Shown here in pieces: positions 2,192-39,793 of a stretch of 64,000 nucleotides of DNA (positions are counted from its first letter, which is position 1; every line of letters starts with the position of its first letter). Source of the DNA: Fibrobacter sp. UWB13. GTDB taxonomy: Bacteria; Fibrobacterota; Fibrobacteria; Fibrobacterales; Fibrobacteraceae. Under the pieces are notes generated by a model that worked only from the letters and a program-made list of their open reading frames with translations, did not search any database and was not told where the DNA came from. The translations under genes were made by a program, and so were the position numbers. The stretch is from contig NZ_FXAX01000002.1 in assembly GCF_900177805.1 (NCBI RefSeq), positions 558,001 to 622,000 on the forward strand, given 5' to 3'.

Positions 2192-2194
2192 AAA

Positions 2195-3370
2195 TTACTT
2201 GTAGTTGACGTAAATGATGAACGCAGACGAAATCACACTCAAAAGTGATGCCATGAACAAGGTGAAATCCTTGAACGATTCGTAATGGTTCTTGGGAATT
2301 TCAATGACGTCGCCCGGCAAAATCGGGTCCGTCGCCACGTTGATAGAAATCGCTTCCGGCTTTGCACCGCGCCAGACCTTCGCCTGGGTCCAGGAACCCG
2401 TAATCGTATTCACGCCACCCGAAGAGATATAGTCAATGGCATGCCATGTCGGATTGTAAGTGTAACGGCCGATATAGTTTACGGCACCGCCAAGGTACAC
2501 GAACAGTTCCTTGATAAAGAATTCCACTTCCGTATTCGGCTCGACAGTCGTCGTCTTCATTTCGCCAAGCGAAATCCAGCGGGGTTCCTTGTCCGGTTCG
2601 CGAATGCATACAGACTTATAGCCCTGGTTGTGCATCCTATCGGCGCCAGCAAGCTCAAAGTAATCCTGGAGAGTCCTATCCGAACGGTAAGCGACCGTCG
2701 TTCTATACCCCGGGAAAACCAGGGAAACGTTATCGCCCATCGGGACAAACGGCACATAAATCTTGTCTCCCTGCTGTAGCAGAATATCGTTTTCAAAATT
2801 GCCGTTCTTCGCCATGTCATTGAAGTTCACGTGGATGGTATCCTTACCGCGAATAATCTGGACATCTTCCTTATTGGCGTTCGGGAGAAGCCCGCCAACC
2901 GCACGGATAAACATCGAAAGCCTGTTCTGCGGGTCAATCACATGCTGTCCGACCGCAGGAATTGCACCCATGGCGTTCACGCGGAACCTCTTCATGGCTG
3001 CAAGTTGCACAAAGCAGTATTCACGCTTGTAACGCCTGGAAACAAGGTCGAGAATCAGCCTCTGCGCCTCAGCCAAAGTCTTGCCGTTTACATTCACGAC
3101 ACCACACTCTTCGACAGCCACGCCGCCATCCGGATACACCTGGATAGAGAGGTACTTGTCTTCGAGCATCAAGTCCAGAAAGTCGCCCGGACCGAGCACG
3201 TAATTGGAATCCACAGCCATTTCGGCATACATCGGCGTAAGCGATGCGGCGCCACGCGTAGACGTACCTTCGCCGAGAACTAGACCCTTAGACGCAGAAT
3301 TGCCAAACATCGAATCCGAAGCAAAGGCACAAACGCACGCCAATAAAAGACAGACAATAAAAGATCGCAT
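2195..3370 (-). CDS. Wza-like polysaccharide export protein
   Basis: 391 residues. The N-terminus is a signal peptide; LLAC around residues 9-12 could serve as a lipobox, as in Wza, although a plain signal peptidase I site after CAFA is also possible. The phrase YVLGPGDFLDL near residue 60 starts a Poly_export domain, followed by SLBB-like segments (around 95-160 and 210-290). A hydrophobic segment lies at the extreme C-terminus (about 368-388), where Wza has its membrane-spanning helix. The expected role is the outer-membrane export channel for exopolysaccharide or capsule. First gene of the visible operon; a TATAAT box lies 44 bp upstream. Confidence 0.88.
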   Translation of the reverse strand: MRSFIVCLLLACVCAFASDSMFGNSASKGLVLGEGTSTRGAASLTPMYAEMAVDSNYVLGPGDFLDLMLEDKYLSIQVYPDGGVAVEECGVVNVNGKTLAEAQRLILDLVSRRYKREYCFVQLAAMKRFRVNAMGAIPAVGQHVIDPQNRLSMFIRAVGGLLPNANKEDVQIIRGKDTIHVNFNDMAKNGNFENDILLQQGDKIYVPFVPMGDNVSLVFPGYRTTVAYRSDRTLQDYFELAGADRMHNQGYKSVCIREPDKEPRWISLGEMKTTTVEPNTEVEFFIKELFVYLGGAVNYIGRYTYNPTWHAIDYISSGGVNTITGSWTQAKVWRGAKPEAISINVATDPILPGDVIEIPKNHYESFKDFTLFMASLLSVISSAFIIYVNYK

Positions 3371-3413
3371 AATACTTTTCTACAGTTGAGAAAAAGATTG
3401 ACAAGTTACCTAA

Positions 3414-3419
3414 TTATAC
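3414..3419 (-). promoter_or_regulatory. Putative -10 box of the polysaccharide export operon
   Basis: On the minus strand the sequence reads TATAAT here, a perfect -10 hexamer, with a leader of roughly 37 nt to the ATG at 3370. No good TTGACA-like -35 box is present at 16-18 bp. The segment around it is strongly AT-rich. Confidence 0.45.
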
Positions 3420-3450
3420 AAAAATTAAAATGAAGAGTAGAACCAAATCA

Positions 3451-3495
3451 TCAGTTATTGGCCATTAGTCATTGGTTATTTGTCAATGGCTATGG
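3451..3495. repeat. Degenerate short-unit repeat (TTAGTCATTGG-type)
   Basis: Overlapping imperfect copies of words such as TTATTGG, TTAGTCATTGG and GTCAATGG lie just downstream of the ribosomal operon terminator. The same vocabulary recurs at 18041-18106 (other orientation) and 59728-59857. Confidence 0.55.
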
Positions 3496-3498
3496 ATG

Positions 3499-3540
3499 CA
3501 AAAAGGGGACACGGTATAAAAACCATGTCCCTTTTTAAAA
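3499..3540 (-). terminator. Rho-independent terminator of the ribosomal operon
   Basis: An inverted repeat (3501-3515 with 3522-3536) lies just after rplQ. Read on the minus strand the stem contains a U-G wobble where the plus strand would have a C-A mismatch, and a T-run closes it, so it acts on the minus-strand operon. Confidence 0.8.
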
Positions 3541-3561
3541 GCGGTTGACCGTTTTTTGATC

Positions 3562-4035
3562 TTAGTTAGCGGACTTGCCTTCGCCTTCGACCATGTCAAC
3601 AGCAGCGTCAGCCTTGGCAGGTTCAGCAGCCTTCTTAGCCTTAGCAACGATTTCGTCTTCGACGAGACCGATCAAAGCCATTTCAGCAGCGTCGCCGGCG
3701 CGGTTCGGGCCGAGCTTCAGCACGCGAGTGTAACCGCCGTTGCGGTTAGCATAACGCGGACCGATCGTGTTGAACAAATCCTGGAGAACCTTCGGGTCCA
3801 TCACGAAGCGAGCTGCTTCACGACGTGCAGAGAGGTCACCCTTCTTTGCGTAGGTAATCATGCGTTCTACACAGCTGCGCACAAGCTTAGCCTTGTGGAG
3901 AGTGGTACGCACATAGCGCTTGTTCTGATCCGTTTCCATGCCCTTCTCGAGAATAGAAGTCGTGAGGGCGCGGAGGATGGCACGCTTGTGTTGGGCGTTA
4001 ACACCCAGTTTCTTGTTTTTTACACCGTGTCTCAT
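3562..4035 (-). CDS. rplQ: 50S ribosomal protein L17
   Basis: 157 residues. The N-terminus (MRHGVKNKKLGVNAQHKRAI) is the standard L17 start, with the conserved fold up to about residue 125. After that comes an Ala/Lys/Glu-rich tail of some 25-30 residues that is not in the compact E. coli protein. It is the last gene of the operon, 2 bp after rpoA, and a terminator follows directly. L17 sits near the exit tunnel of the large subunit. Confidence 0.97.
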   Translation of the reverse strand: MRHGVKNKKLGVNAQHKRAILRALTTSILEKGMETDQNKRYVRTTLHKAKLVRSCVERMITYAKKGDLSARREAARFVMDPKVLQDLFNTIGPRYANRNGGYTRVLKLGPNRAGDAAEMALIGLVEDEIVAKAKKAAEPAKADAAVDMVEGEGKSAN

Positions 4036-4037
4036 GT

Positions 4038-5012
4038 TTAATCCTTCAAGTAATCATCGACGTCCATGCCAAAAGAGAGGCCCATCGACGTCAACACCTC
4101 GTTAAGTTCAACCAAGGACTTCCTACCGAAGTTCTTGTATTTGAGCATATCGTTTTCCTTGTTGCGAACAAGCTCGCCAATGGTATGGATGTTTGCCATA
4201 CGGAGGCAGTTGCTGGAGCGAACGGAAAGTTCCAGATCGTCCACGCGCATACGGAGGAGGTTAGCGATACGCTGACGTTCTTCATCCATTTCGAGTTCTT
4301 CAGGAGATTCGAGATCGCCTTCGAAGTTGATGAAGATTTCCAAGTGATCCACAAGAAGCTTTGCAGCGTATGCAAGAGCGTCTTCCGGGTCAATGGAACC
4401 GTCTGTTGTAATTTCAAGTTCCAGACGGTTGTAGTCCGTCTTCTGACCAACGCGGGTATCGCTGATGTGCATTGCGACTTTCTGAACCGGGTTGAAGTTC
4501 GCATCCATGGCGATAACGCCAATCGGAGCGTCCTTGTCCTTGAGTTCGTCGGCAACAACATAACCACGACCGCAGGAGATCTTCACGTCCATCGACAAAG
4601 AAGCGTTGCCGTTCAATGTCGCAATGTGAACATCCGGAGTCAGGATAGTGACATTTGGATTGTCCATAAAGTCCTTGGCCGTGACTTCGCCATCACCGGA
4701 CATGTCCAAGTGAAGGGTTTCATCATGATCAGACAGGAGCTTTACACGGATGCTCTTGAGGTTGAGGATAATGTCAGTGACATCTTCCTTAACACCCGGA
4801 ATCGTCGAAAATTCCTTGTCAACGCCTTCGATTTTCACGGAGACAATAGCCGCACCCTGCAGAGAGGAGAGGAGCACGCGACGGAGAGCGTTACCGAGGG
4901 TAATACCCCAGCCACGTTCCAAGGCTTCTACGACAAACTTGGCGTAGCGGCCATCTTCGCCGGTTTCCACTTTCTGGAAGCTGCGCGGCATCTGAAGTGA
5001 TTTCCACATCAT
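4038..5012 (-). CDS. rpoA: DNA-directed RNA polymerase subunit alpha
   Basis: 324 residues with the two standard parts: the N-terminal assembly domain (GWGITLGNALRRVLLSS near residue 35) and the C-terminal domain with its helix-hairpin-helix (SNCLRMANIHTIGELV, about 267-282), joined by an acidic linker. It is the platform for RNA polymerase assembly and contacts UP elements and activators. It follows rpsK by 18 bp. In many bacteria rpsD lies between these two genes, but not here. Confidence 0.98.
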   Translation of the reverse strand: MMWKSLQMPRSFQKVETGEDGRYAKFVVEALERGWGITLGNALRRVLLSSLQGAAIVSVKIEGVDKEFSTIPGVKEDVTDIILNLKSIRVKLLSDHDETLHLDMSGDGEVTAKDFMDNPNVTILTPDVHIATLNGNASLSMDVKISCGRGYVVADELKDKDAPIGVIAMDANFNPVQKVAMHISDTRVGQKTDYNRLELEITTDGSIDPEDALAYAAKLLVDHLEIFINFEGDLESPEELEMDEERQRIANLLRMRVDDLELSVRSSNCLRMANIHTIGELVRNKENDMLKYKNFGRKSLVELNEVLTSMGLSFGMDVDDYLKD

Positions 5013-24049: not shown

Positions 24050-25102
24050 CTAGGGCGCAACCCTTGACTTGATAGCAAGAATCTCAGATTCAGAAAGCTC
24101 CGTGAATTCCATAATCTCTTCTATAGGCTTATTCTTGGCAAGCATCTTGGCAGCCATTTCGCAAGCCTTCTTCAGTTTGCCTTCGGCGAGTCCGTCTTTG
24201 CGACCTTCGGACTTGCCTTCTGCAAAGCCCTCAGCATGTCCTTCGGTTTTTCCTTGGGCGAAGCCTTCCGCGCGACCTTCGACGAGACCCGCTTCGTGGC
24301 CCTCTTTCTTGCCTTCGGCAAATCCGATTTCATGTTCTGCCATCAAGTCCGTCACGTTCTTTACCTCGCAGTTGAATAGCTCTTCTGCAAAATTAATCAA
24401 TTTCACAGAATCAAGCAACCTCCTGAACGTTTCGTTCTGCATAATCTTTTCGGGAACGGGTTCCTCATTGATAGTCACCTTGATGGCGCGGAGCCACTGC
24501 GCGGCTTCGGAGCTGTCGTTCGTGGTAATCCCCTTTTCTTCGAGCCTGAAAAACTTCTCTATTTCCACAAAAATCTTCTGGATTTTCGGGAAGAACTTCC
24601 TCCCGTTGCACATCTCGTCGACGTGATGGATGTACTTCTGCGGTTCTTCCGGGAAAAGCGTAAAGTCCAAGAGCCCGAGGAAGTAAATGCGGGGCAGTTC
24701 GTATTTTTCGCTTGTATGCACCTGATTCTCGATGACGCGGGACATGTAATATTCCACACGGTCGCGGTAAAATTCGTCACCCTGCTGCTGCACCTCGACC
24801 AGCACGCGTTCGCCCGCGTTGGTCGTTCCGATAATATCCACGATGCAGTCCTTCTTGGTGAACGCGCCGGGGAACTCCTGCATTTCAAGCGTGATTTCCT
24901 TGATAGCCTCGCCGCCATGCAAGTCGAGCATCGCGTTCACAAGCGAAATGAGGAGCGTGTGGTCCTTTTCTTCGGCGAAGACGATCTTGAAGATGCCGTC
25001 GCTGAGGATGTAGGCGTAGTTGTAGATTTCCTGGTACTTGAGAAGGTTTTTCTTGTCGATTTCCATTGCCCTGAGCAAGGAATAATGTTGAGCACGATTC
25101 AT
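24050..25102 (-). CDS. Rpn/PD-(D/E)XK nuclease-fold family protein with EG-repeat tail
   Basis: 350 residues. DGIFKIVF near residue 35 and the nuclease core IVDIIG (Asp89) ... VEVQQQ (Glu103, Gln105) match the Rpn recombination-promoting nuclease / PD-(D/E)XK family transposase-like group (PF12784). Residues about 255-310 are a run of short repeats of the type AEGxxEGxxEG, then a helical C-terminus. Such proteins are often labelled transposase, but no terminal inverted repeats or target duplications are visible here. Lone gene with its own terminator. An internal start at 25066 is possible. Confidence 0.82.
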   Translation of the reverse strand: MNRAQHYSLLRAMEIDKKNLLKYQEIYNYAYILSDGIFKIVFAEEKDHTLLISLVNAMLDLHGGEAIKEITLEMQEFPGAFTKKDCIVDIIGTTNAGERVLVEVQQQGDEFYRDRVEYYMSRVIENQVHTSEKYELPRIYFLGLLDFTLFPEEPQKYIHHVDEMCNGRKFFPKIQKIFVEIEKFFRLEEKGITTNDSSEAAQWLRAIKVTINEEPVPEKIMQNETFRRLLDSVKLINFAEELFNCEVKNVTDLMAEHEIGFAEGKKEGHEAGLVEGRAEGFAQGKTEGHAEGFAEGKSEGRKDGLAEGKLKKACEMAAKMLAKNKPIEEIMEFTELSESEILAIKSRVAP

Positions 25103-25712: not shown

Positions 25713-26210
25713 ATGCAAAATTCTAGCACACGTGAAGAAATGCGACAGTATTATTCGAATACAACGTCAACTGTTGAAAAAATCCTTACTGATTTAAAAG
25801 AAACCAACAACCGAAACGACGAAGAATTACAAAAAAAAGTTGGCGCCCTCATTGCAAATATCGAGAGCAACAACAATAAGTTTAAAAAGCTTGTCGAAGA
25901 TCTTGAAAAAGATAGTGAATTCGATAAATTCACCATTGCATTTTTAGGGCAGACCAATGCTGGCAAAAGTACGATTATTGAAGCCTTACGCATCCTTTTT
26001 GATGAAGAATCCCGAAAAACAAAAGCAGCTGAAAATCAAAAAGGTAATATTACCGCATTGACCGATTACAACAAACAATATTCTGAACTTATCCATCAGC
26101 TAGAAAATCTAAAATCAAAATATAAAACTCCAGCATCTAGTATAATTATCCCCATTGTTGCACTCCTAATCGGAATTGCAATCGGTATTGGAATTGGAGG
26201 CTTAATATAA
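25713..26210 (+). CDS. Dynamin-like GTPase, N-terminal half with P-loop and membrane segment
   Basis: 165 residues. A helical N-terminus (1-70) leads into a P-loop GQTNAGKST at 79-87. No further GTPase motif follows; instead residues about 139-165 form a glycine-zipper-like membrane segment (IIPIVALLIGIAIGIGIGG) ending at the stop. The next gene starts inside the stop (TAATG) and carries the missing G2-G3 region. So one GTPase domain appears divided over two coupled genes, or a frameshift split one gene. Membrane-anchored nucleotide-binding subunit of a dynamin-like pair is the best reading. First gene of its operon, behind candidate operator 1. Confidence 0.7.
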   Translation: MQNSSTREEMRQYYSNTTSTVEKILTDLKETNNRNDEELQKKVGALIANIESNNNKFKKLVEDLEKDSEFDKFTIAFLGQTNAGKSTIIEALRILFDEESRKTKAAENQKGNITALTDYNKQYSELIHQLENLKSKYKTPASSIIIPIVALLIGIAIGIGIGGLI

Positions 26211-27853
26211 TGAACCTTTTTAAGCCTAGGCAAGTTAAACTCATAAATGCCTTAATAAGGCACATTAAGGCAAAACAGAATCTTGAAAATAGCAGCTATT
26301 TTCAAGTGGACGGCTGTATTATCGGTAATGGTAGCCAGGATTTTACAAAATCCCACACAAGCTATGGATTAAACATTAATGGAGAAAAAGCACAGCTAAT
26401 CGATATCCCTGGCATTGAAGGCAATGAAGAAAAATTTATAGACATAATAAAGAATGCCCTGAAAAAAGCGCACCTTGTTTGTTACGTTGCAAAAGAAGCA
26501 AAAGGTATCGAAGAAACCACCTTGCAAAAAATCAAGGATTACATGCAAAAGAATGTTACCGAAATGGTAGGCATTCACAATATTCCATTACAACCGCAAA
26601 AGGAATATGACGGAGACGATTACGTAGAAGACATTACAAAAAAATTCAACGAAGCCAATAAGAAAAACAGCAATATCGGGGAAAAGCTTCAAAGCGTTGT
26701 TCCCGAAGATATGTATAAGGACACCGTAGGAATTTCTGCATTGCCTGGAATATGCGCTTTGGCTATTCACAATGGCAAAACCTCATTCGCTGCTCCAGAA
26801 AAATTTCCTAACAACACTGCTGTAGCAGAATCGCTGAAATCTTTACGCCGTGAACAAAGGACCTTTTTAAGTCGTGCATCGGATGTTGACCTGTTAAAAG
26901 TGAGCCATTTGAACAAACTCAGAAATGTTATTATTGACAGCTGTAACAATGCACCTGAAAGGATTAAAAAGGCTTCGTTAATCCGTCTATCCAAGCTTCT
27001 TCAAGATGACTATCTAGCCGACATTACCAAACAAAAAACTGCAATTGGAGAATTTCGTAATAAAATCCAAAAAAGAACAAATTCGCTAAGAGATAATATA
27101 GGAAACGCCCGTGATCAGCTAAAAAGGAACATGGAGCATTCTGTAAAAAATACAGTATATGATTTCTTCTATCAGGATATTTTGGAGAAAATTATTTATC
27201 CCCATATTGAACGCCATGTAAAAATTGATGAAGATATCTTGAACAGGGAACTCAAATCTGAGCAATCTAGACTGAACAAAAAGATGTCTGATGATATACA
27301 AAATGCGATAACATCATCTTCAAAAGATTTTGCGGAACGAATTCAAAACTACGTGTCCGACTACCAACGCGGCATGATGCTAGATTTCCAAAATATCTCT
27401 TTGGAGTTGCCAGAATTCAATGCGGAATCTTTTGATTTCAAGCAGCTAGGAAGTGCGGCTATGACAATCGGCAGTTATGCAATCTCTGGCTTTGCAATCG
27501 GAAACGTATTTCCAGGTATAGGAACTCTAGTTGGCACAATAGTCGGTGCATTTGTAGGTTTGGTTGTTTGGGTCGCAGGGTGGTTCACTTCAAAAGAAAC
27601 CAAAATTAGAAAAGCGAAAAGTAACGCCCGCGATAAAATCGAAGAGTGTGCCTATGAAACTTGGAATAAGATGTCTGGCAAAATAAGAGACATCGCCAAC
27701 AAACTCGCTTCGAAAACGGATGAAGTCATAACACTTGCTTACAGGCAAGTCGAATCAGCAAATCAGTCTTACAACTTGATCTCAGATTTGGAATCAAAAA
27801 TCAAAAAACAAGTAAAACATCTTGATGCAGAAATTGAACTGATGAGGGTATAA
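26210..27853 (+). CDS. Dynamin-like GTPase, C-terminal half with G3 motif and stalk
   Basis: 547 residues. Near the N-terminus DIPG (65-68) is a G3 motif, but there is no P-loop before it; the P-loop lies in the preceding gene. VGISALPG (about 175-182) may be the G5 region. The rest is long helices, as in dynamin stalks, with a glycine-rich hydrophobic segment at about 415-460 (SYAISGFAIGNVFPGIGTLV) that would insert in or cross the membrane. The ATG overlaps the stop of the previous gene by one base. Likely partner: the P-loop protein just upstream. Confidence 0.7.
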   Translation: MNLFKPRQVKLINALIRHIKAKQNLENSSYFQVDGCIIGNGSQDFTKSHTSYGLNINGEKAQLIDIPGIEGNEEKFIDIIKNALKKAHLVCYVAKEAKGIEETTLQKIKDYMQKNVTEMVGIHNIPLQPQKEYDGDDYVEDITKKFNEANKKNSNIGEKLQSVVPEDMYKDTVGISALPGICALAIHNGKTSFAAPEKFPNNTAVAESLKSLRREQRTFLSRASDVDLLKVSHLNKLRNVIIDSCNNAPERIKKASLIRLSKLLQDDYLADITKQKTAIGEFRNKIQKRTNSLRDNIGNARDQLKRNMEHSVKNTVYDFFYQDILEKIIYPHIERHVKIDEDILNRELKSEQSRLNKKMSDDIQNAITSSSKDFAERIQNYVSDYQRGMMLDFQNISLELPEFNAESFDFKQLGSAAMTIGSYAISGFAIGNVFPGIGTLVGTIVGAFVGLVVWVAGWFTSKETKIRKAKSNARDKIEECAYETWNKMSGKIRDIANKLASKTDEVITLAYRQVESANQSYNLISDLESKIKKQVKHLDAEIELMRV

Positions 27854-27855
27854 CC

Positions 27856-29643
27856 ATGGAACAAAATTCCTTTAAAACAGAAATCTTAAAATTTGTCGAA
27901 AAACTGGACAAGTTTTCAAATCTCCTTACAGAAGCAAAGAAAAGGACTTTTTCTGAAGAATTGGAGAAATCTTTTGAATCTTCTATAGAAAAAGTAGCAT
28001 CCCTCAAAAACAGCCTTCAGGATGGCAAACTGAGAATTGCCCTTGTCGGAGCTTTTTCCGACGGAAAGACGAGTACTGTCGCTGGTTTTTTGGGACATGC
28101 CGATAGCAACATGAAAATTGCTGAAGAGGAATCTTCTGACGAGGTTATTGAATACAAACCAGAAAATATTGATGAGAATCTTCCACCTTGTTTATTTGTT
28201 GATACTCCAGGGCTTTTTGGACAAAAATACTCAGAAAAAACGGAAAAATTTGTATCTGAAGCCCATATCATCTTGTACATTGTCGCTGCAACTAACCCAC
28301 TAAAAGATAGCCATAAAGAAACAGTTGCATGGCTGATGAATAAATTAAATAAATTCGATAACACCATTTTTGTCATTAACAGAATGGATGATGTATGCGA
28401 TTACACTGATCCTGAAGATTTCGCAGAAAAAGAGAAACAAAAGAAAGAATTTCTCATTGAAAACATTACCCGGTTCTGCGGTCTTAATAAAGATGATGCT
28501 AAAATAAAGAACTTGAACATCGTCTGCATTTCCTCGGACCCAGAAGGCAAAGGTTTGCAAGATTCCAACGGAAAGCAGAATTATTGGTTGACTCCCGAAA
28601 AGAGGGAAAAATACGAAAAGTATTCCCGCATGCAAAACTTGAGGGATACAGTCAATGAAGTTGTCAAGCAAACCTTACCCCAAAAGCTAATCCAAGATAC
28701 CGCTCTCACCGCAATCATTGCCGAAGTGGAAAAAAACTTCAAGGCATTAGATGATGAACAAAGCAAATTAGGCGAAGCAGTCATTCCAGAAACAAAAAAT
28801 ACTGTAGAAATTCTAGAAAGAGATCTTAATAACACAAAAAAGGACTTAAAGCGCGAAATTCGCCCATGCCGTGAAGAGCTTGAATCCCTAGAAAAAAGAA
28901 TTACTACAAAAATCAGAAGCGCATCTGTGGCAACATTGCAAGAGGTCGTTGAAGATGAAATCGGTGACAAAGACAGTGCGCATAAACTTGAAGCACATAT
29001 TCAGGATATTCTGCGAGATCATTTTGAAAACATTGTCAACACCTCCTGTCAAAAAATCAAATCCGATTTCGATTTAGGCAGTGAAAACATCGATTCTTCC
29101 TTAAAGCACTTTGTAAAAGCAGGTGCCGACGGAATGAAGAGTTTTAGCGGCATCGGTAAAGCAACTGTTTTTGCTGGCAGGGATATCTTAGGAAAAGTCG
29201 GCATTGCCATTAAGTTCAAACCATGGGGTGCTGTAAAAGTTGCCGGCATGATTAATAAGGGCGTTCCTATAGCAGGTGCTGCTATTTCCTTGGTTCTCGA
29301 CATTTTCACTATATTTCAAACCAAGGAACAGCAGGAAAAATTTGCAAATGCTCAAAATACATTGATAGAAAATATCCATACAGCATTCAAAGACATTTAT
29401 AAACAGTTTAATGAAGATGGGGTCTTCTTCGATTCTTTTGCACCGCAGATTTATGAAATAGAAAAACAAATCGATGGCGCCCGCACGGCTCTAAAAGAAC
29501 TCGAAAATAACAATACATTTTGTAGTGAAGCAAAAGATAAAATTAAGGCTTTTCTGAAAAACGAGACCTTCAACGACTCTTGTTCAAGCGAATCAAATCC
29601 CAAAGGGCTTCGCGCATGGATTAAAAAAATTATGAAAAGCTAA
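27856..29643 (+). CDS. Dynamin-like GTPase (complete G domain)
   Basis: 595 residues. P-loop GAFSDGKTST at about 65-74, DTPG at 116-119 and NRMDD (G4) at about 175 form a complete G domain without the membrane insertion seen in the split partner. Helical stalk follows, with a hydrophobic glycine-rich segment near 425-475 (AGRDILGKVGIAIKF, VPIAGAAISLVLDIF) that may bind membranes. Bacterial dynamin-like proteins act on membranes, often as pairs encoded side by side, which fits. It starts 2 bp after the previous stop and ends the first operon before a strong bidirectional terminator. Confidence 0.82.
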   Translation: MEQNSFKTEILKFVEKLDKFSNLLTEAKKRTFSEELEKSFESSIEKVASLKNSLQDGKLRIALVGAFSDGKTSTVAGFLGHADSNMKIAEEESSDEVIEYKPENIDENLPPCLFVDTPGLFGQKYSEKTEKFVSEAHIILYIVAATNPLKDSHKETVAWLMNKLNKFDNTIFVINRMDDVCDYTDPEDFAEKEKQKKEFLIENITRFCGLNKDDAKIKNLNIVCISSDPEGKGLQDSNGKQNYWLTPEKREKYEKYSRMQNLRDTVNEVVKQTLPQKLIQDTALTAIIAEVEKNFKALDDEQSKLGEAVIPETKNTVEILERDLNNTKKDLKREIRPCREELESLEKRITTKIRSASVATLQEVVEDEIGDKDSAHKLEAHIQDILRDHFENIVNTSCQKIKSDFDLGSENIDSSLKHFVKAGADGMKSFSGIGKATVFAGRDILGKVGIAIKFKPWGAVKVAGMINKGVPIAGAAISLVLDIFTIFQTKEQQEKFANAQNTLIENIHTAFKDIYKQFNEDGVFFDSFAPQIYEIEKQIDGARTALKELENNNTFCSEAKDKIKAFLKNETFNDSCSSESNPKGLRAWIKKIMKS

Positions 29644-30178: not shown

Positions 30179-30811
30179 GTGTTTGGGTTTTCATTGCTAA
30201 AAGTCGACCGAATACAAGAAAAAACAGGCGTTCTTGGACCTGGCATACGAGCCGTGATCTGGTTTCACGGCTGTTTTCGCCATTGCCCTGGCTGCATTGC
30301 CGCAGGGATGAACAAGTCTCAGGATTTTACCGAATACACGGTAGACGAGCTGTTCCAGAAGGTTGCATCGGTTGAAGGCATAGAGGGAATCACCATCTCT
30401 GGCGGCGAACCCTTGATGCAAAACCTAGACGAACTGTACGAGTTCCTGATGTTGGTCAGGCAAAAGACATCCTTGAGCGTAATGCTCTATACGGGGTACC
30501 TGTTGCAAGAGGTCAACGAAGACGAAAACAAGAAGCGACTGCTTGACTTTGTGGACATCCTAGTCGATGGCCCCTACGTCGAGGAACTGGACCATGGACA
30601 ACTATGGAGAGGCTCCGAAAACCAGAGGGTTTATTTTCTCTCTTCGCGGTACTCCGAAGCCCAAGATGGTTTCGCGCAGAAGAAGGGGCGCCCCATAGAA
30701 TGTAAGTTTATAAATGCCTCCGATTTTTCCCTGACGGGAGTTCCGCCTCGCGGGTTCAGGAAATCTCTTTCGAGAAGAATGGCAGAAAAGGGTTTAATTA
30801 TTAACTGGTAA
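30179..30811 (+). CDS. NrdG-like radical SAM activating enzyme
   Basis: 210 residues. CFRHCPGC near residues 33-40 is the C-x3-C-x2-C cluster motif of radical SAM activases, and SGGEPLMQ near 80-87 is the GGEP motif that binds SAM. The size and order match the NrdG/PflA group (single 4Fe-4S, no SPASM tail). No nrdD or glycyl-radical enzyme is in the window, so the substrate is unknown. The start could be GTG at 30179 or TTG at 30194; neither has a strong ribosome binding site. First gene of the long operon to 48985. Confidence 0.85.
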   Translation: MFGFSLLKVDRIQEKTGVLGPGIRAVIWFHGCFRHCPGCIAAGMNKSQDFTEYTVDELFQKVASVEGIEGITISGGEPLMQNLDELYEFLMLVRQKTSLSVMLYTGYLLQEVNEDENKKRLLDFVDILVDGPYVEELDHGQLWRGSENQRVYFLSSRYSEAQDGFAQKKGRPIECKFINASDFSLTGVPPRGFRKSLSRRMAEKGLIINW

Positions 30812-30826
30812 TAAAGAAGGAACAAT

Positions 30827-32326
30827 ATGAGCGGTGTAAAAAAAGCGACAGTAACACAGAACCTGAATAGGACTTTGAAAACCGTTGAGGAGGCACTCGC
30901 ACAGTGCGCATCCATGGCGAACTCGACTGGAAAAATCGGTCAAAGCGAATTCGAGAATAAAAAGAGGAACGCCCAGACGGTACACAACAACGTCATTCGC
31001 AAATTGCCTGAAGAACTGGCACAGTTCCTTCGTAACGAAACTGCCCAGTGGAAATCCCTTTTGCACCGCCACGACGAGAGCTACGACAAAGCTGGAACAT
31101 CTGCAAATCAGGCTAATCAGTATGACGCGACGTTCCAACAGCATTACGATATTGCAAGGCGTGAACTATCGTCGATAAAAAGCAACGTAAATAACATTAA
31201 AAATCAAATTAGCGGTAGAAGCGGCTATCTTAATAGCGAAAATTACCAAGCTTTGGAACTGGGTCGCCAGGCAAGGCAAATTTTGGCAGAATTGCAGCCC
31301 GATGTAGAACTGAGCAGAAAAGCCCAAGATTCAAGGCGTCAGGCATTCAATAAACTCTCGGAATCAGAATCTCTGGCACAAGCAGCCCAGCGCGAATACG
31401 ACCGTTTGGTGAACCTCGCCCGCGACCGACAGGAAAAGAAACGCATCGCCGAAGAAAACGAACGCAATGCAAAAATGCTCGATGCCGACCTGAAGTCTCT
31501 CCGCAAGGAAATCGAGTCTAAAAACTACAAGAAGTTCTCGAACAGCCGCTATTCGGAATCCCTCAAACGCGAACTCGATTCGCTGAAAGACCTAGTCGTG
31601 GGTGGCGCATACGCCGAAGCCATTCCGCGCTCTCAAAAGATTAAGGAAGAACTGATCATCATCTCAGCCGAGATTGATGCGAACGAACAAGCGTGGACTG
31701 CCGCCAAGAACGCAGCCGAAAAAGCTCTTACCGATGCTAAAGCAGAAATGGCTCTTACGAACAGAAATGATGTGGAGCTCTATTCCGGTCTAGACAAATC
31801 CTCCGTAGATAAGTTTTATTCGAACATTGACAAGGCTTCCCGCCTGATTGCATCCGAATCATTCGATGCAGCGACATCACAAATTGCAGATGTCTTGAGC
31901 AATCTCCGTTCAGCTGTCGAAAAGACCGTGGAAAACAAGAGGCTCGCAGAACAGCGTGAAGAAATCGCCCAGTCGATTATGCAGGCGCTCTACGATTGTG
32001 ACTATGACACACCGAGCTACTACCAGAAAGAAGAAGGCAATGAGCTTTCGGACCTATGCGTCGTCGCAGCAGCCCCTGGCGGAGTTGGCGACATGAAGTT
32101 GCGTATCGCCCTGGACGGCAACGTTTCCTTTGAAGTGGCAAACATCCCCGAAGGCCATGAAAAGCTCTGCATCGAGTCCGTCCGGAAAATGCAGGAAAAG
32201 CTCGCCGAAGACGAAATCAACTTTAACGTGACCGACTGGGGTCGCGCAGAAAACCAGAACAAGGTCCACCTGGACGTAAAGCAGAGAACACAGGAAACCC
32301 AGATTACCCGTCAACGCCAGGGATAA
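30827..32326 (+). CDS. Coiled-coil protein of the cluster
   Basis: 499 residues. Most of the chain (about 1-390) is predicted-looking long helices rich in Ala, Glu, Lys, Arg and Ser without Pro. The last 110 residues (after YYQKEEGNELSDLCVVAAAPGG) look globular, with beta-strand character. No enzyme motif, no signal peptide, no membrane segment. It has a clear AAGGA ribosome binding site and sits 3 bp before the AAA+ gene, so it is probably a partner or adaptor of that ATPase. Confidence 0.7.
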   Translation: MSGVKKATVTQNLNRTLKTVEEALAQCASMANSTGKIGQSEFENKKRNAQTVHNNVIRKLPEELAQFLRNETAQWKSLLHRHDESYDKAGTSANQANQYDATFQQHYDIARRELSSIKSNVNNIKNQISGRSGYLNSENYQALELGRQARQILAELQPDVELSRKAQDSRRQAFNKLSESESLAQAAQREYDRLVNLARDRQEKKRIAEENERNAKMLDADLKSLRKEIESKNYKKFSNSRYSESLKRELDSLKDLVVGGAYAEAIPRSQKIKEELIIISAEIDANEQAWTAAKNAAEKALTDAKAEMALTNRNDVELYSGLDKSSVDKFYSNIDKASRLIASESFDAATSQIADVLSNLRSAVEKTVENKRLAEQREEIAQSIMQALYDCDYDTPSYYQKEEGNELSDLCVVAAAPGGVGDMKLRIALDGNVSFEVANIPEGHEKLCIESVRKMQEKLAEDEINFNVTDWGRAENQNKVHLDVKQRTQETQITRQRQG

Positions 32327-32329
32327 ATT

Positions 32330-34918
32330 ATGAATAGCATCTTTTTCAACAAGCGAATTGAAGGTCCGTTCAAGGAGACCTACAAAGGTTACAACCAGTA
32401 TATTTTTACTGGCGATATCGACGACCTGTTTTTGATGGATTCTTCTGAACTGGGAATCAATCGCAAACTTTGCAGGATTGAAGATGCCTTTGCGGAATAT
32501 GGCAAGAAAGAAAAGTACGACATTGTCATTACCGTAAAAGAAGACCAGAATCTTTCTTTTGGCAACAGTCAGCAAGAAGAATTATTCAACAGGCTTGCGA
32601 GCGGGTCTAGCGAAAAACTCGTGGAAGAAGGGAAAAAAGCAAAGGCGTTCACCCCACGCAAAAAAAGAGAAGAACAGTCTAGCGCATCTCAAAGCCAGAC
32701 TAATGAAAATGCAACTAATCCCAACGCCCAAAACTCAAAACGCCAAGTTGAAGAACAAGCGCAAGGCAACGACGGTCTCAACCGCTTGAACAGAATTACA
32801 CGAGTTCTGCAAAATACAAACACCAAGACACTTGTAATTTACCCCAATCCCGAAAAGATGATTGTCGGCGGGAATGTCGATGCCCCGACCATGCAAAAAA
32901 TCGAAGTCATCGTTAAGAAATGGCGCGACATTATCCAAGAAGCCAATCCGGAAACAAGGACGGTACTGATTATCAATCCCCACCGGTTAAAAGAATTCCG
33001 AATGGTGGAACACACCTTATCTTGCTATGACCACAACTGCAAGGAAATAACCATTTCGAATCCGCCAGTCGATGAAATGAAGACATGGCTAAAAAAATAC
33101 CGTAAAGAAAACAACATTCAAGGAACAAAGAACGATAGAGACCGAGTAGTCCTCACGGGTCGAGCCAATGGCGGAAGCTTGCAGAACTTCATCAGTTGGG
33201 TTCAAGGATTCTTCTGGACAAATCCAAATTTGTGCAATTGGAGTGACCTGATTGCGCATGAAAATCAAGATGCAGTCGAATCCGTCGATGGGCTTATAGA
33301 GCGCCTCGACGAAATGATTGGGCTTGATGACGTGAAAAAAGAAATCAAGACCATCAAGGAAAACGCTGAAAAAAATCACGACACCGCAGCAGAAGCATCT
33401 TACCACATGTTCTTTCTGGGCAATCCCGGTACAGGCAAGACAGTCGTCGCAGACATTGTCGCAAGGCTTTTCTGGGCTATGGAATTGCGCACAAGCAAAA
33501 AGGTCGTAAACGTCGCTATTCAAGATATCATAAGCCAATACAACGAAGGCGAAACCATCCAAAAAATGAAGGACAAAGTCCAAGAAGCCATGGGTGGTGT
33601 CCTTTTCATTGACGAAGCATACCTATTCGCCGAAAGCGACTGGGGACGTAAGGCTTTCCAAGTTCTCTTGACCGAAATGGAAAACAACCGCAATAACTTG
33701 ACGGTAATTCTTGCTGGGTACGAGGAACGCTTGCAGGCACTAAAGGATGTGAACCCCGGTATCGACAACCGTATTCGAATTAAACTACATTTCAAGGATT
33801 ATTCAAAGGAAGAAAAACTCAGAATTTTCAAATTGTTCCTAAAAAAGAACAATGAAGAAAAAGAGACCAAGTATCATCTTTCTCCCGAAGCCGAGCAGAA
33901 ATTGCTCCGCGTACTCGATTCCTGTGAAGGAAATGGACGTGGAGTCAGAAATGTATTCGATTACACCTTGCAAAAAGCTGGGAATGCCGAAGAAATTACT
34001 GAAAATCACATCTATGATCCCCACGAAATCCATCCGGATGAAGCCGATAAGGTCATACAGGATATCAATCGAGAATTCATCGGAATGGAAGATCTGAAGG
34101 ACCGCCTCAAGCAATACTTTAAACGTATCCAATGGAATGTCCAACGTAACAAGATTTTGGGAATAACAAAGCCCTCTAATTATGCCTACCGCATCCGCTT
34201 TACAGGTCCTCCGGGTACCGGCAAGACATCAATTGCACGCTACATGGGCCGATTCTTCCACGCCATGGGCATTACTGAAACTGATGGATTCCAGGAATGT
34301 GGTGCAACCTCGCTCAAGGGCGCCTATGTCGGACATGCGCAAAAAGCGGTCAACAACCTGTTCCACGAAAATCGAGGCAAGGTCATTTTCATCGATGAAA
34401 TCTATAGCCTCTACAACCCCGACGCCCATCAGGACGATTCGTTCTCGCGCGAAGTGATTGATACGCTCGTTCGCTGCTTGACTGCCGAAGAATATCAGAG
34501 TACGGTCGTCATTGTCGCAGGCTACAAAGATCGAGTCGACAAGTTCATGGAAGCAAACCCTGGTCTTGCAAGCCGCATCCCCGATGAAATTGAATTCCAA
34601 AACTACTCCGCCAACGACTGCTACAAAATTTTTGTCGCCGAAGCCCAAAAGCATCAGTACGAAGTTTTGGACGGATGTCAAGAAAAGCTGGAAGCTTACT
34701 TCCAAGCCGAAATCGACAAAAATCAGTCCAATTTCGGAAACGCCCGCGACGTGAAGGCAACCTTCGGACTTGTCGAGACTAACGTCATGAACAGAGTTTT
34801 TTCAGACTCTGAAATGTTGTCTTTGGCAAAAACAAAGCCAACAAGGGAACAGTTTACACAAATTATCCCAGAAGACATTCCCGCCGCTGCCCCAATCGCA
34901 AAAAAGAATGAGGATTAA
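32330..34918 (+). CDS. Tandem AAA+ ATPase (CbbX/CfxQ-like, two ATPase modules)
   Basis: 862 residues. First AAA+ module: Walker A GNPGTGKT at about 364-371, Walker B VLFIDEAY at about 424. Second: GPPGTGKT at about 626-633, Walker B VIFIDEIY at about 683. Both resemble the CbbX/SpoVK group. The N-terminal 330 residues have a Ser/Gln/Asn-rich linker (about 100-140) and a region (about 160-330) whose layout resembles a third AAA module that has lost Walker A. Such ATPases remodel protein complexes; substrate unknown. 3 bp after the coiled-coil gene, 2 bp before a vWA gene. Confidence 0.88.
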   Translation: MNSIFFNKRIEGPFKETYKGYNQYIFTGDIDDLFLMDSSELGINRKLCRIEDAFAEYGKKEKYDIVITVKEDQNLSFGNSQQEELFNRLASGSSEKLVEEGKKAKAFTPRKKREEQSSASQSQTNENATNPNAQNSKRQVEEQAQGNDGLNRLNRITRVLQNTNTKTLVIYPNPEKMIVGGNVDAPTMQKIEVIVKKWRDIIQEANPETRTVLIINPHRLKEFRMVEHTLSCYDHNCKEITISNPPVDEMKTWLKKYRKENNIQGTKNDRDRVVLTGRANGGSLQNFISWVQGFFWTNPNLCNWSDLIAHENQDAVESVDGLIERLDEMIGLDDVKKEIKTIKENAEKNHDTAAEASYHMFFLGNPGTGKTVVADIVARLFWAMELRTSKKVVNVAIQDIISQYNEGETIQKMKDKVQEAMGGVLFIDEAYLFAESDWGRKAFQVLLTEMENNRNNLTVILAGYEERLQALKDVNPGIDNRIRIKLHFKDYSKEEKLRIFKLFLKKNNEEKETKYHLSPEAEQKLLRVLDSCEGNGRGVRNVFDYTLQKAGNAEEITENHIYDPHEIHPDEADKVIQDINREFIGMEDLKDRLKQYFKRIQWNVQRNKILGITKPSNYAYRIRFTGPPGTGKTSIARYMGRFFHAMGITETDGFQECGATSLKGAYVGHAQKAVNNLFHENRGKVIFIDEIYSLYNPDAHQDDSFSREVIDTLVRCLTAEEYQSTVVIVAGYKDRVDKFMEANPGLASRIPDEIEFQNYSANDCYKIFVAEAQKHQYEVLDGCQEKLEAYFQAEIDKNQSNFGNARDVKATFGLVETNVMNRVFSDSEMLSLAKTKPTREQFTQIIPEDIPAAAPIAKKNED

Positions 34919-34920
34919 TT

Positions 34921-36579
34921 ATGGAAAATACCTGCTTTAAAATCAAAGCCCTCGATAAACTTCAAGACAACATTACGTCTATCAAAAACGCAAACACGGA
35001 CAATAGAATTTTAAAACGCGTCAGTGAAATCGAGAAAGCGGCTACAACATCGGACAATAAATTGAAAGCAAAAGGCGAAGACCTGTACGAAACTTATTCA
35101 AGCGCCCTTCAACTTAAAGAAAAGGGAGGGGATGTCGACAACATCATCTACACGTTCGTCATTGAAATTCTTGATGGTATTTTACAAAGCAGTCCTTCCG
35201 AACGATATTACTTAGAGAACAATGATGCGTTTTTGATGGAACTTTCTAAAGAAATCGATCTAAAAAGGGAAATCCCTGTTGATGAAACTCCTGAGTTGGA
35301 ATGCTCCTGGAGTGAAAATCTATCAACAGAAGAAACTCTCGAATTCCTAGAACTCATGGATAAAGCCATCAAGGATCGCGACCAACTCATTAAGGAATAC
35401 GGTGACATAATAGCTTTCTTAAACCGTCTCCTGACTGCGAAAGGGGAATTCGATAAAAGACGCCAAATCAAGGAAGACCTCCCACTCTTCACGTTCGTAC
35501 GTACTTGTGCCAAGAAAAAAGATGACGAAATCGCAGCACAAATCATAGAAGAACTGAAGGCAGAATCCAACAGCGAAAATACTGCTAGCGATAATGCTTT
35601 TGCAGATTCCAATATTGAAGAACCTGTTCAGGAAAGTGTCCAGGAATTTGTCGATAGCCTAACTTCAGAAACTCCTGTCGAAAACACAGCCACCGAACCA
35701 ACTGAAACCGCTACAGCTGATGCACCTGAAACTACAGAAGCACCAACAGAGGAACACGACTCCCCCGCTTCCGCAGCATTTACGGAATCTGAAGGCAACC
35801 GCGCCGATGTACTGTTCGTTCTAGATGCAAGTGGCAGCATGCGCCCATGCTTTGACCAACTCAGGACACATATCAAGCGCTTTGTAGAACCGTTCAAGAC
35901 AGCAGGTTTCACATCTCTACGCCTTGGGCTTTTGGCATACAGCGCCAACAAGGACAGAACACACAACAGAATTGTGTACCGCAACATGTTCCTCTGTCCA
36001 AACCGTGCTAGCAATATGGCAACCCTCTATGGCGACCATGAAACCGCAAGCAAAATGTTCTTTACCAACACTTCGAGCATCGAAGGGAATGTAGACAAGT
36101 TCGTCCGCAGGCTGGACGAAATCAAATGCCTTGGCGACGAAGACACTCCATTTGCCATGGACTGTGCCGCTGATTTCCCATTCGAACCCATCAACACGAC
36201 CCGAAGAGTCATTATCCTCTTTACAGATGAAAGAATTGACGATGGCGTATCTAAAATGAAATCGATCGGCGAGAACTATAGCACGCTTGACAAAATTATG
36301 GACAAAATTAGCAAGAAGCATATCTCCCTTTACTTCTACGGTCCATCGAGCCCCGCTACCGAGGTTCTCGAAGATTACCCGCGCGTTGTTTACCAAGATG
36401 TCATCGCTTATCAAGACAGGCATAGCCCCACAGAAACTTGGGACAGTCTGAACATCGGACGTGTTTTGGAAAGCCTTGGCAAGAGCATTTCGAGATCAGC
36501 CCTGTCCGCAACGGAAGAACCCGAGACAGAACGTGCCATCTACCATCAGGATACCTGGTCTGAGGATTCCTGGAATTAA
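34921..36579 (+). CDS. vWA-domain protein
   Basis: 552 residues. A helical N-terminal region (1-210), a Glu/Thr/Ala-rich linker (about 215-290), then a vWA domain with the metal site DASGS at 302-306 and the conserved Thr/Asp positions further on (EDTPFAMDCA near 405). The vWA sequence is closely related to that of the next gene (PCFDQLR, FVEPF, FTSLRLGLLAY). Cytoplasmic, no signal peptide. vWA proteins next to MoxR- or CbbX-like AAA+ ATPases commonly act as adaptors in chaperone complexes. Confidence 0.85.
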   Translation: MENTCFKIKALDKLQDNITSIKNANTDNRILKRVSEIEKAATTSDNKLKAKGEDLYETYSSALQLKEKGGDVDNIIYTFVIEILDGILQSSPSERYYLENNDAFLMELSKEIDLKREIPVDETPELECSWSENLSTEETLEFLELMDKAIKDRDQLIKEYGDIIAFLNRLLTAKGEFDKRRQIKEDLPLFTFVRTCAKKKDDEIAAQIIEELKAESNSENTASDNAFADSNIEEPVQESVQEFVDSLTSETPVENTATEPTETATADAPETTEAPTEEHDSPASAAFTESEGNRADVLFVLDASGSMRPCFDQLRTHIKRFVEPFKTAGFTSLRLGLLAYSANKDRTHNRIVYRNMFLCPNRASNMATLYGDHETASKMFFTNTSSIEGNVDKFVRRLDEIKCLGDEDTPFAMDCAADFPFEPINTTRRVIILFTDERIDDGVSKMKSIGENYSTLDKIMDKISKKHISLYFYGPSSPATEVLEDYPRVVYQDVIAYQDRHSPTETWDSLNIGRVLESLGKSISRSALSATEEPETERAIYHQDTWSEDSWN

Positions 36580-36605
36580 GTTATTATTACAAAAAAGGAT
36601 AAATC

Positions 36606-37943
36606 ATGAGTGAAGAAAAAAGAGCCGACGTAGTATTCGTTGTGGACGCAAGCGACAGTATGAAACCCTGCTTCGACCAGTTGCGCAACAGCATCAAGAA
36701 ATTTGTGGAACCGTTTAGAGAAGAAGGTTTTACATCGCTCCGTCTAGGACTCTTGGCATACAATGCAGGTCCAAGCAACGGCAAATGGGTTTACCGCAAC
36801 ACGTTCATCAACGGCGATGCTCCCGAAAACATGAACATCCTTTACGGTAACGATGAAGATGCGCAGGAATCACTGTTCACACGCTCTGGCGACGGTTTTG
36901 TCGATGTGGAAACATTCTGCAACCGCCTCGATTCCATCAAATGCTGCGCTGATGAAAATACACCGCTCGCTCTCGACTGCGCAAGCGACTTCCCGTTCGA
37001 ACCGATTTGCACAACCAGAAGAATCATCATCGTATTTACCGACGAAAAGCTTGAAGATGGCGTTTTGAAACAAGAAGCCCTTGGCAATAACTGCTCGGAA
37101 ATCGAAAAGGTAATGAACAAGATTACCAACCAGCGCCATGCATCTCTCTATTATTTCGGTCCACAGTGCGAAGGCGTTGAAGTAATGGAAGATTATCCCC
37201 GAGTTATCGTAACTAACGTCAAAGAATACAAGGAACGCGCCGAAGGTGAAGACATCTGGTCAAATATCGACTTCGAAAAAATCCTAGAAAGCATGGGTAA
37301 AAGTATTTCGCACTCGGTATTGGAAGTTGTAGACGAAGGTAATTTTGACAAAGCTGTTTACGGTCAAGACAAGTGGGACCTGGAAGCCTGGGGCAAGGAC
37401 GAAGTCGGTGGAGTTATCGATATTACTGATGTGAAGGAAGGCGCCGTACTGGATGTCTCTGAACCACTAGAATGGGTAAATGCCCAAATGCTGTGGAAAA
37501 CCCCTATCGACCTGGATATCCATGCTTTCTACAGATTAAAAAGTGGATACCATGGACATATCTTTTATAACAATAAAAGGGCTTACGGAATGGAACTGGA
37601 TCACGATGCCGGTGTGGGAGACAAGCTCGATAGCCCTGAAGGCAACCAGGAAAATATTAAATGCAGCTCATTCAACAATATTGAACGCATGCTTATTGCA
37701 ACTAAAATTTACCAAGAGCATGGTTGTTTTTCCGATTACAAAGGCGTCGTTAACGTAACTACAAGCAATCCGAGACAAAAAACAATCCAATGCAAAATGG
37801 AATCAAGAAAACGACTTGACTGGTGCGTTATCGCAATGATTGACAACAGTAACCCACAAAAGCCGCGAGTATTGCCCATCAACCAGGTTGTTGCAAATGA
37901 ACCTAATGTAGATGATTCAGAATGGCTTTCAAAAAGAGCCTAA
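36606..37943 (+). CDS. vWA-TerD fusion protein
   Basis: 445 residues. The N-terminal vWA domain starts at once (metal site DASDS at 14-18) and parallels the preceding protein. The C-terminal part (about 285-420) reads as a TerD-like domain: LMWKTPIDLDIHAF, HIFYNN, then LDHDAGVGD and an ENIKC strand, the arrangement of the calcium-binding TerD fold of tellurite-resistance-type stress proteins. This fusion links the cluster to Ter systems, in which vWA (TerY-like) and TerD proteins occur as separate partners. AAAGGA before the ATG. Confidence 0.82.
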   Translation: MSEEKRADVVFVVDASDSMKPCFDQLRNSIKKFVEPFREEGFTSLRLGLLAYNAGPSNGKWVYRNTFINGDAPENMNILYGNDEDAQESLFTRSGDGFVDVETFCNRLDSIKCCADENTPLALDCASDFPFEPICTTRRIIIVFTDEKLEDGVLKQEALGNNCSEIEKVMNKITNQRHASLYYFGPQCEGVEVMEDYPRVIVTNVKEYKERAEGEDIWSNIDFEKILESMGKSISHSVLEVVDEGNFDKAVYGQDKWDLEAWGKDEVGGVIDITDVKEGAVLDVSEPLEWVNAQMLWKTPIDLDIHAFYRLKSGYHGHIFYNNKRAYGMELDHDAGVGDKLDSPEGNQENIKCSSFNNIERMLIATKIYQEHGCFSDYKGVVNVTTSNPRQKTIQCKMESRKRLDWCVIAMIDNSNPQKPRVLPINQVVANEPNVDDSEWLSKRA

Positions 37944-37978
37944 GCCAATAGCAATAAAAAGTTTTTAACGAGGAAAAA

Positions 37979-39793
37979 ATGGCAGGTACAATTTTTTCTA
38001 AAGATGAAATTATCGAAGGCACGGACAATGGCGAACCTTACAAGTTCCAAGCCCTCAAAGATGGCGTTGAAGGCTCGGGTTCTATTTACGGTCCAGGAAT
38101 TGACCTTCTCCATAATAACGAAAAGGTCTTCTTAAAAAAGTATGTGGATCCCGCTCCACGCTCACTCTGGTTCAACGCGTTCGTAGATTACCAGAAAAAA
38201 ATCCAAAACAAGATTGAACAGTCCAGCAACGCCAAGCAATTGATTGCAGGCATCCACCGTTATTTTCAGGATAATCGTCGCCGTTTCTGGCAGACTATTG
38301 AATATGTTGAAAATAGCAAAGACATGAAGAAGTACCTAGAGTCTGACGACACTACTTGGGAACAGCGCATGATGTTTGCTAAGGTATTCATGTTTGCAAT
38401 GAAGGTCTTGCACGAAGAACTGCGCCTCGTTCACGGAGACCTCAAACCCGCAAACTTGCTTTTGATTCCGCTGAATGGTGGAACTTACAGCGTCAAGCTC
38501 ATTGACTTTGACCGTCCCATTCTCTTGGATGAAAGCGAAGTGCCTTGGAGTTCTGAAGGTTACATCGGTTCAGAAGGATACTTCTCTCCTGAACACAAAA
38601 AACGCCAACGCCCCACCGACAAGTCAGACGTGTTTACCTGCGGCTTGATTCTTTACGAATTACTAGCAAAGGAAGGTCATCCCTTCAACTACGCTACAGT
38701 ATCGGCAGACTATAACGAAAATGCAGCCCCCATGCCACATCTGCTCGGCACGTTTGGCAACGAAGAAAGTGACAGACTCATTGAAGAAACTTTGCACCGC
38801 ATGTTGGAGCCAAATCCTGACGACCGCCCAACAGCAAATGAGGTCTATCAAGTTTTTTTTAGAGCGGGCGGAAGCATCCGCCCTCAGACGCCAAAGGCAG
38901 CTCAAGATCATACAAGAGTCGCTCAACCAGCCTATTCAGCACCTGTTGCATCTGTTTCGGTGGTGACCAACCAGTCTCCAGTTGATGTCCAGGCGTTAAA
39001 AGGCGCTGCCGATGTCGTGTTCCTGTTAGATTCAACAGGTAGCATGACCCCTTGCATTACAGCATTAAAACAGCATATCCATTCGTTTATCGAAGCACTT
39101 GTCCATGGTGATGATGAACGGAATATTTCACCCGTCGAAGACTGGCGTGCACGCATAGTCGGTTTTAGAAATTTTGAAGACTGCAATAAGAGCGAGAAAA
39201 ATGCAAAGCTGTACCGCAAATTTGGTGGCGGCGGCTGGCTCATTTCAAACCCGTTTACCCGTGACGAAAATGAACTGCATAGCCAACTCGACAAGCTCAA
39301 ATCCTTCGGTGGCGGCAAAGCCCCGCAGGAATCTCTTCTCGACGCCTTAATGCTCGTGCTCAAATCAGGGTTTCTCCCCACAGGGCAACAAGACGCAGGC
39401 GAAGCCGATGGTGGCAGGGCATGGCGCACAAACGGTGTCGGTCGCATTGTCATCGTCTTTACCGACGCTGGCTACCACCCCACCATGAGCTACTGCGCCG
39501 AAAAGACGCTATTTGAAGAAGGCGCCCTTTACCCGCTTGACTTGAGAGGTGCAGGCTTGGACGAACTCCAACACGCCATCGAATCGGGATTCTTCAAAGT
39601 TTACGTCTTCGCTCCGAACATCAGCGATTACGATGAGCTAAGCGACCTTAGCAACGTTCTCATCATGCAAAGCGATGACGAAGACGAAGGTCTCGTCAAA
39701 ATGATGAGCGATTCACAAATCGAACGCCTAATCGATGACATCGTCAAAGGCGTGAGCCGTTCTTCCAGTGACTTTAGGGAAATCCCGATTTAG
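37979..39793 (+). CDS. Ser/Thr protein kinase fused to vWA domain
   Basis: 604 residues. A kinase domain covers about 15-305: candidate Lys in VFLKKY (about 51), catalytic loop HGDLKPAN (152-159, Gly in place of the usual Arg), DFD in place of DFG (about 177-179), SDVFTCGLILYELL. A short linker is followed by a vWA domain with DSTGS at 351-355 and YHPTMSY further on. Kinase-vWA fusions of this type belong to TerY-P-like signalling. The odd DFD motif leaves activity open, though the catalytic Asp is kept. Cytoplasmic; GAGGA ribosome binding site. Confidence 0.85.
   Translation: MAGTIFSKDEIIEGTDNGEPYKFQALKDGVEGSGSIYGPGIDLLHNNEKVFLKKYVDPAPRSLWFNAFVDYQKKIQNKIEQSSNAKQLIAGIHRYFQDNRRRFWQTIEYVENSKDMKKYLESDDTTWEQRMMFAKVFMFAMKVLHEELRLVHGDLKPANLLLIPLNGGTYSVKLIDFDRPILLDESEVPWSSEGYIGSEGYFSPEHKKRQRPTDKSDVFTCGLILYELLAKEGHPFNYATVSADYNENAAPMPHLLGTFGNEESDRLIEETLHRMLEPNPDDRPTANEVYQVFFRAGGSIRPQTPKAAQDHTRVAQPAYSAPVASVSVVTNQSPVDVQALKGAADVVFLLDSTGSMTPCITALKQHIHSFIEALVHGDDERNISPVEDWRARIVGFRNFEDCNKSEKNAKLYRKFGGGGWLISNPFTRDENELHSQLDKLKSFGGGKAPQESLLDALMLVLKSGFLPTGQQDAGEADGGRAWRTNGVGRIVIVFTDAGYHPTMSYCAEKTLFEEGALYPLDLRGAGLDELQHAIESGFFKVYVFAPNISDYDELSDLSNVLIMQSDDEDEGLVKMMSDSQIERLIDDIVKGVSRSSSDFREIPI

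Follow-up and report, generated by a model that had tools for sequence, protein, structure and literature searches.

A dynamin G domain probably shared between two neighbouring genes, leoC and leoB, in a Fibrobacter Eleos operon

The dynamin-like Leo system has been described in Escherichia coli, in which leoC and leoB, located upstream of leoA, together correspond to one dynamin-like gene that has been divided (Michie et al. 2014, PMC4159319). This split was resequenced, which excluded an error, and was found to be conserved in other bacteria; a membrane anchor was predicted at the end of LeoC, switch I was assigned to LeoC as well, and the reason for the split was a matter of speculation only (PMC4159319). 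RefSeq annotates leoC, leoB and leoA in E. coli, PADLOC lists the LeoABC family as an anti-phage defence system named Eleos and a later survey also counts Eleos, as a dynamin-like system, among defence systems (PMC11811056). Here we analysed a window of 64,000 nucleotides from Fibrobacter sp. UWB13 (contig NZ_FXAX01000002.1, positions 558,001 to 622,000), in which three consecutive genes are identified by sequence homology as leoC, leoB and leoA. The operon is a distant member of a known system whose split G domain is already published and so is not new. What is new, as far as the literature shows, is the position of the break within the G domain, the association of the split with a tail anchor and the link to a helical arm in fused relatives. 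LeoC and LeoB probably make up a two-subunit composite dynamin G domain at the membrane, a reading that draws on homology, the conservation of the split, its match with the anchor, the variable reading frame and the location of the break.

The operon lies on the + strand in the order leoC (25713..26210, 165 amino acids), leoB (26210..27853, 547 amino acids) and leoA (27856..29643, 595 amino acids), the genes being overlapping or 2 bases apart. All three match their PADLOC profiles far beyond chance (LeoC E=1.2e-42, LeoB E=9.9e-188, LeoA E=7.3e-214), LeoC has 30 split homologues and LeoA also matches Pfam DLP_helical (E=1.6e-51). The motifs of the dynamin superfamily are distributed over the first two genes, with G1 in LeoC and both G2 and G3 in LeoB. 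LeoC comprises the N-terminal portion of the G domain, followed by a connecting helix and a C-terminal tail anchor; its P-loop GQTNAGKST (25947..25973, residues 79-87) follows the pattern G[QEA]T[NG]AGKS found in every split LeoC. The C-terminus is hydrophobic and glycine-rich and ends with a TAA that overlaps the start codon of leoB as TAATG (26208..26212), so that the two open reading frames share one base and leoB is in the -1 frame. LeoB begins with a helix, followed by the switch I/G2 candidate DGCIIGNGSQDFT (26309..26347, residues 34-46; D[FY]T plus D.PGIE in 55/55 homologues) and by the G3 motif DIPG (26402..26413, residues 65-68), DxPG being invariant in an alignment of six sequences. 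The G4 motif (N/T)KxD is degenerate and weakly kept, N124 being identical in all six sequences of that alignment, and reading of the sequence for motifs found no P-loop in this LeoB. Beyond the remainder of the G domain, LeoB has a helical stalk and a hydrophobic glycine-rich segment (27446..27586) in the position of a dynamin-like paddle, a role suggested by the published E. coli work (PMC4159319). The partner protein LeoA carries its P-loop GAFSDGKTS and its G3 motif DTPG in a single chain. A preliminary description of this DNA had already noted the P-loop and a glycine-zipper membrane segment in the first gene, the DIPG in a second gene starting within the stop and a third gene with all motifs in one chain, and the sequence bears out each of these points.

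Alignment to one-chain LeoBC relatives allowed the break to be located. In the one-chain PADLOC profile, positions 11-98 match LeoC and positions 100-579 match LeoB. The G2/switch I motif DGxIIGxG...D[FY]T sits in LeoB, and the share of LeoC is thus beta1, the P-loop and alpha1 only, while that of LeoB is switch I and everything after. Since the short fused proteins have only 18 residues from the P-loop to DGxIIGxG (GETNAGKSTIIETFRILFDSNRPLASDGNIVGNG in L046), the break is assigned by alignment to the alpha1-switch I loop of the G domain. On the same basis, switch I is placed in LeoB and not in LeoC as published (PMC4159319). In the same way, the motif DFTKGNT was found in LeoB of an E. coli strain (L159).

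The main comparison comprised 55 loci, 31 split and 24 fused, after truncated loci had been removed. Relatives in genome contigs were retrieved with an alignment as query, LeoB alone having given no match; a later set added two split E. coli loci and eight distinct fused ones, L155 and L157 being identical in the stretch from the P-loop to switch I and therefore counted once. The 31 split pairs span Fibrobacterota, Kiritimatiellota, Spirochaetota and Pseudomonadota, and LeoA lies directly downstream in most of them. The P-loop, switch I and DxPG are kept in split pairs just as in fused proteins. No P-loop was found in the LeoB proteins of the 31 split loci. The orthologue comparison proposed in the preliminary description supports two subunits, the split being conserved across several phyla, although one-chain LeoBC relatives also exist, including in the same family (L007/L046). 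Order-wide searches started from four other genomes yielded only three more strong loci (L081-L083). The phage records searched contained no match, while nine matches were obtained in plasmids; the four plasmid loci that were read are all fused.

In a quick tree, about three changes between the split and fused states were counted. A single clade for the split loci gave p-AU 0.5 in the approximately unbiased test; a single origin is thus not rejected and the split may have arisen once or twice. One member of the split clade, L034 (941-3121), encodes a one-chain protein without membrane segment; it comes from a single metagenome contig and is perhaps a secondary natural re-fusion. In E. coli O68:H12 (L158, 1-5497), the leo genes are located between an integrase gene and tRNA-Phe, which suggests that they belong to a mobile island. 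With a strict LeoA P-loop pattern, no LeoA was detected downstream of the long-insert fused genes of L048, L049, L052, L054, L063-L066, L069 and L072, and an annotated LeoA was found downstream of the fused protein in the plasmid relatives L154-L156; the pattern is probably too narrow.

The split and the tail anchor go together. In the window, the predicted transmembrane tail anchor of LeoC (26121..26207, about residues 137-165) is lysine-rich before and uncharged after, with a Kyte-Doolittle 19-residue peak of 2.77; judged from hydropathy and charge, LeoC has a single C-terminal hydrophobic helix preceded by positive residues and no N-terminal signal. The corresponding peak reaches at least 1.78 in 31/31 split LeoC proteins and lies at most 7 residues from the C-terminus in 30/31. 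Conversely, no membrane segment was found between the P-loop and switch I in 24/24 fused proteins, where hydropathy peaks at 1.15 or less. The later set agrees, the two split E. coli loci being anchored and the eight distinct fused ones being without anchor. For the main table, the value obtained in Fisher's test is 4e-16, which overstates the independent evidence because the tree has only about three state changes. In each of the 31 split LeoC proteins, the residues leading up to the anchor are richer in lysine and arginine than those that follow it, so that, following the positive-inside rule, the GTPase part of LeoC is expected to be cytoplasmic. Other arrangements were also seen. In L002, from the same genus, a LeoB open reading frame of about 990 amino acids (minus strand, about 1501-4473) has a polytopic region with at least seven hydrophobic segments before switch I and adjoins a tail-anchored LeoC of normal type. 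In L068 (3933-6449), transmembrane segments are predicted ahead of the P-loop of a fused LeoBC, which would be anchored in a different manner.

These data lead to the following proposal. LeoC would most likely be a tail-anchored inner-membrane protein that contributes beta1, the P-loop and alpha1 from its cytoplasmic part, and LeoB would be a soluble protein supplying switch I, switch II, the remaining G domain, the stalk and the paddle. Translated side by side, the two proteins would probably join into one composite G domain held at the membrane, and the continuation of LeoC alpha1 together with the N-terminal helix of LeoB may form a helical interface that aids assembly. A chain that ends after its transmembrane helix would leave both halves in the cytoplasm, whereas an uninterrupted chain with a single transmembrane helix would send the second half outside; such a separation of the halves would therefore explain the cut, and the lack of any fused protein with a membrane segment at the break fits this topological reason. 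The composite GTPase would then act with LeoA in defence against phages or membrane stress, an anti-phage role for this operon being suggested by the library annotation only.

Several other explanations were considered. The preliminary description had left the choice between two halves that assemble at the membrane and a -1 frameshift that joins or broke them. Close to the leoC stop, a programmed -1 frameshift might also yield a fused LeoC-LeoB, an idea compatible with the -1 frame and the one-base overlap seen in the window. Over the 31 split pairs, however, the LeoB frame, read against that of LeoC, is -1 in 18, +1 in 8 and identical in 5, and the LeoB open reading frame starts as early as 87 bases before the end of leoC and as late as 58 bases past it, so that a conserved programmed frameshift is ruled out. 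Moreover, the product would carry a single transmembrane helix inside its G domain, with the halves on opposite sides of the membrane, and no natural fusion has one; we regard this explanation as highly improbable. The two-subunit alternative is supported by the conserved split and by the anchor always present in LeoC, the assembly itself being what we infer. Finally, one gene might have been broken recently in this genome by a frameshift, a deletion or a sequencing error, as the existence of one-chain relatives, even within the family, could suggest. The split is nevertheless found in relatives both near and remote, a separate profile exists for each of LeoB and LeoC, and the end of LeoC is a conserved anchor and not a random read-out. 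A sequencing error at 26200-26212, raised in the preliminary description, is ruled out because 30 other loci, taken from independent assemblies, show the same split, as do two additional E. coli loci, and the chance of a recent break of any kind is negligible.

It is also unlikely that LeoC and LeoB are separate proteins without a joint G domain, LeoC being a P-loop adaptor at the membrane, LeoB a nucleotide-free dynamin stalk and LeoA the sole GTPase. No published biochemistry of LeoB or LeoC was found in the literature and conservation of the N/TKxD motif is weak in the window LeoB, both of which would be in line with this idea; yet the P-loop, switch I and DxPG are as conserved in split pairs as in fused proteins, and each half covers the part of the fused chain that the other lacks. 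As to function, the Leo system could serve mainly for the release of membrane vesicles, since about half of the vesicle cargo was released in E. coli H10407 (PMC4159319). This seems rather doubtful as an alternative to phage defence, the family being classified as defence in PADLOC and Eleos being treated as a dynamin-like system of defence in the later survey (PMC11811056), and the system could have both roles.

The composite fold and the helical arm at the break are predicted from natural fused relatives. The AlphaFold2 model of the natural fusion L034 has a mean predicted local distance difference test score (pLDDT) of 83.5. In this model, alpha1 continues as a helix (107-143), a second helix (188-223) returns and the strands with switch I and G3 follow. 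Across the junction, the G domain (model residues 97-428) resembles the one-chain GTPases Era and EF-Tu with Z about 15 and a root-mean-square deviation (rmsd) of about 3 A. The best whole-length structural match is Cj-DLP2 (5oxf_C; Z 15.5, 468 residues, rmsd 6.3), and the top Foldseek ranks for the fused model are BDLP, SynDLP, Cj-DLP and LeoA. A G domain followed by a helical stalk with a hydrophobic tip is present in both the model of this fused relative, L034, which is not a window protein, and its Cj-DLP2 match. At the break site, the loop of fused relatives is either short or extended into what is predicted to be a coiled-coil hairpin, amphipathic at its tip. The fused L054, with an insert of 161 residues, is predicted to have helices 118-173 and 188-245 with a turn around NFWQKLMRIFKKLD, which may be read as an antiparallel hairpin. 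An aromatic, amphipathic stretch is found at 0.52-0.58 of the insert length in 12/13 long inserts, where split proteins have their anchor. By shuffling, this aromatic clustering is mostly not significant per protein and only its position repeats, so that a membrane role for the arm tip of fused forms is only a suggestion. Tentatively, the alpha1-switch I loop might be a dedicated membrane-docking arm of the G domain. Many fused forms would have it as a coiled-coil hairpin whose tip is amphipathic, and in split forms it would have been cut, with a tail anchor taking its place; the GTPase might then be assembled or switched only where the anchored and the soluble half meet on the membrane.

Some points weigh against a composite G domain at the membrane. 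The transmembrane calls were made from hydropathy only, and the perfect correlation between split and anchor comes from few independent events, the tree having about three changes. The L034 model is poor in the middle of the insert (pLDDT about 50), no structure of a LeoC-LeoB complex has been solved and the models are of single chains. In addition, the amounts of LeoB and LeoC that could be produced were insufficient and LeoA was found mainly in the periplasm, a poor fit with a cytoplasmic LeoC-LeoB (PMC4159319).

Around the operon, a gene resembling transposases of the PD-(D/E)XK family (24050-25102) lies immediately upstream on the opposite strand. A downstream cluster (30179-39793) encodes a radical SAM protein, a 499-amino-acid protein without Pfam match, a double AAA+ ATPase, two VWA proteins and a protein kinase, and looks like another conflict or stress system.

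If the proposal holds true, this dynamin would be controlled in an unusual way, its GTPase active site being made from two gene products of which one is membrane-bound. The reason for the split, only speculated upon in 2014, would now be concrete and testable, namely membrane topology. The comparison also places the break within the fold and suggests that fused defence proteins may contact the membrane at a second site.

Among known systems, the E. coli LeoC-LeoB-LeoA (PMC4159319) shares with the window the gene order, the split G domain, the C-terminal anchor of LeoC and the downstream LeoA. Identity is nevertheless low (about 28% for the closest Escherichia LeoB), LeoC has 165 amino acids in the window versus 206 in E. 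coli, and leoC and leoB overlap by one base in the window, whereas about 10 bases lie between them in L159, from an E. coli strain. The one-chain LeoBC of Eleos (PADLOC PDLC03841) is homologous over its whole chain to the window LeoC and LeoB and often has LeoA after it. Unlike them, it has the P-loop and switch I together, with no membrane segment between, the junction spacing ranging from 18 to 324 residues. G-alpha proteins, like the arm, have a helical insertion between alpha1 and switch I, a likeness seen in Foldseek matches and in a weak sub-threshold Pfam match, but they belong to a different superfamily branch with neither split nor tail anchor, and we take the resemblance to be an analogy. 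Finally, the Campylobacter jejuni Cj-DLP1 and Cj-DLP2 (5owv, 5oxf), like the proposed Leo proteins, are paired bacterial dynamins and are inactive unless both are present (PMC6104087); unlike in LeoC and LeoB, neither of their G domains is split.
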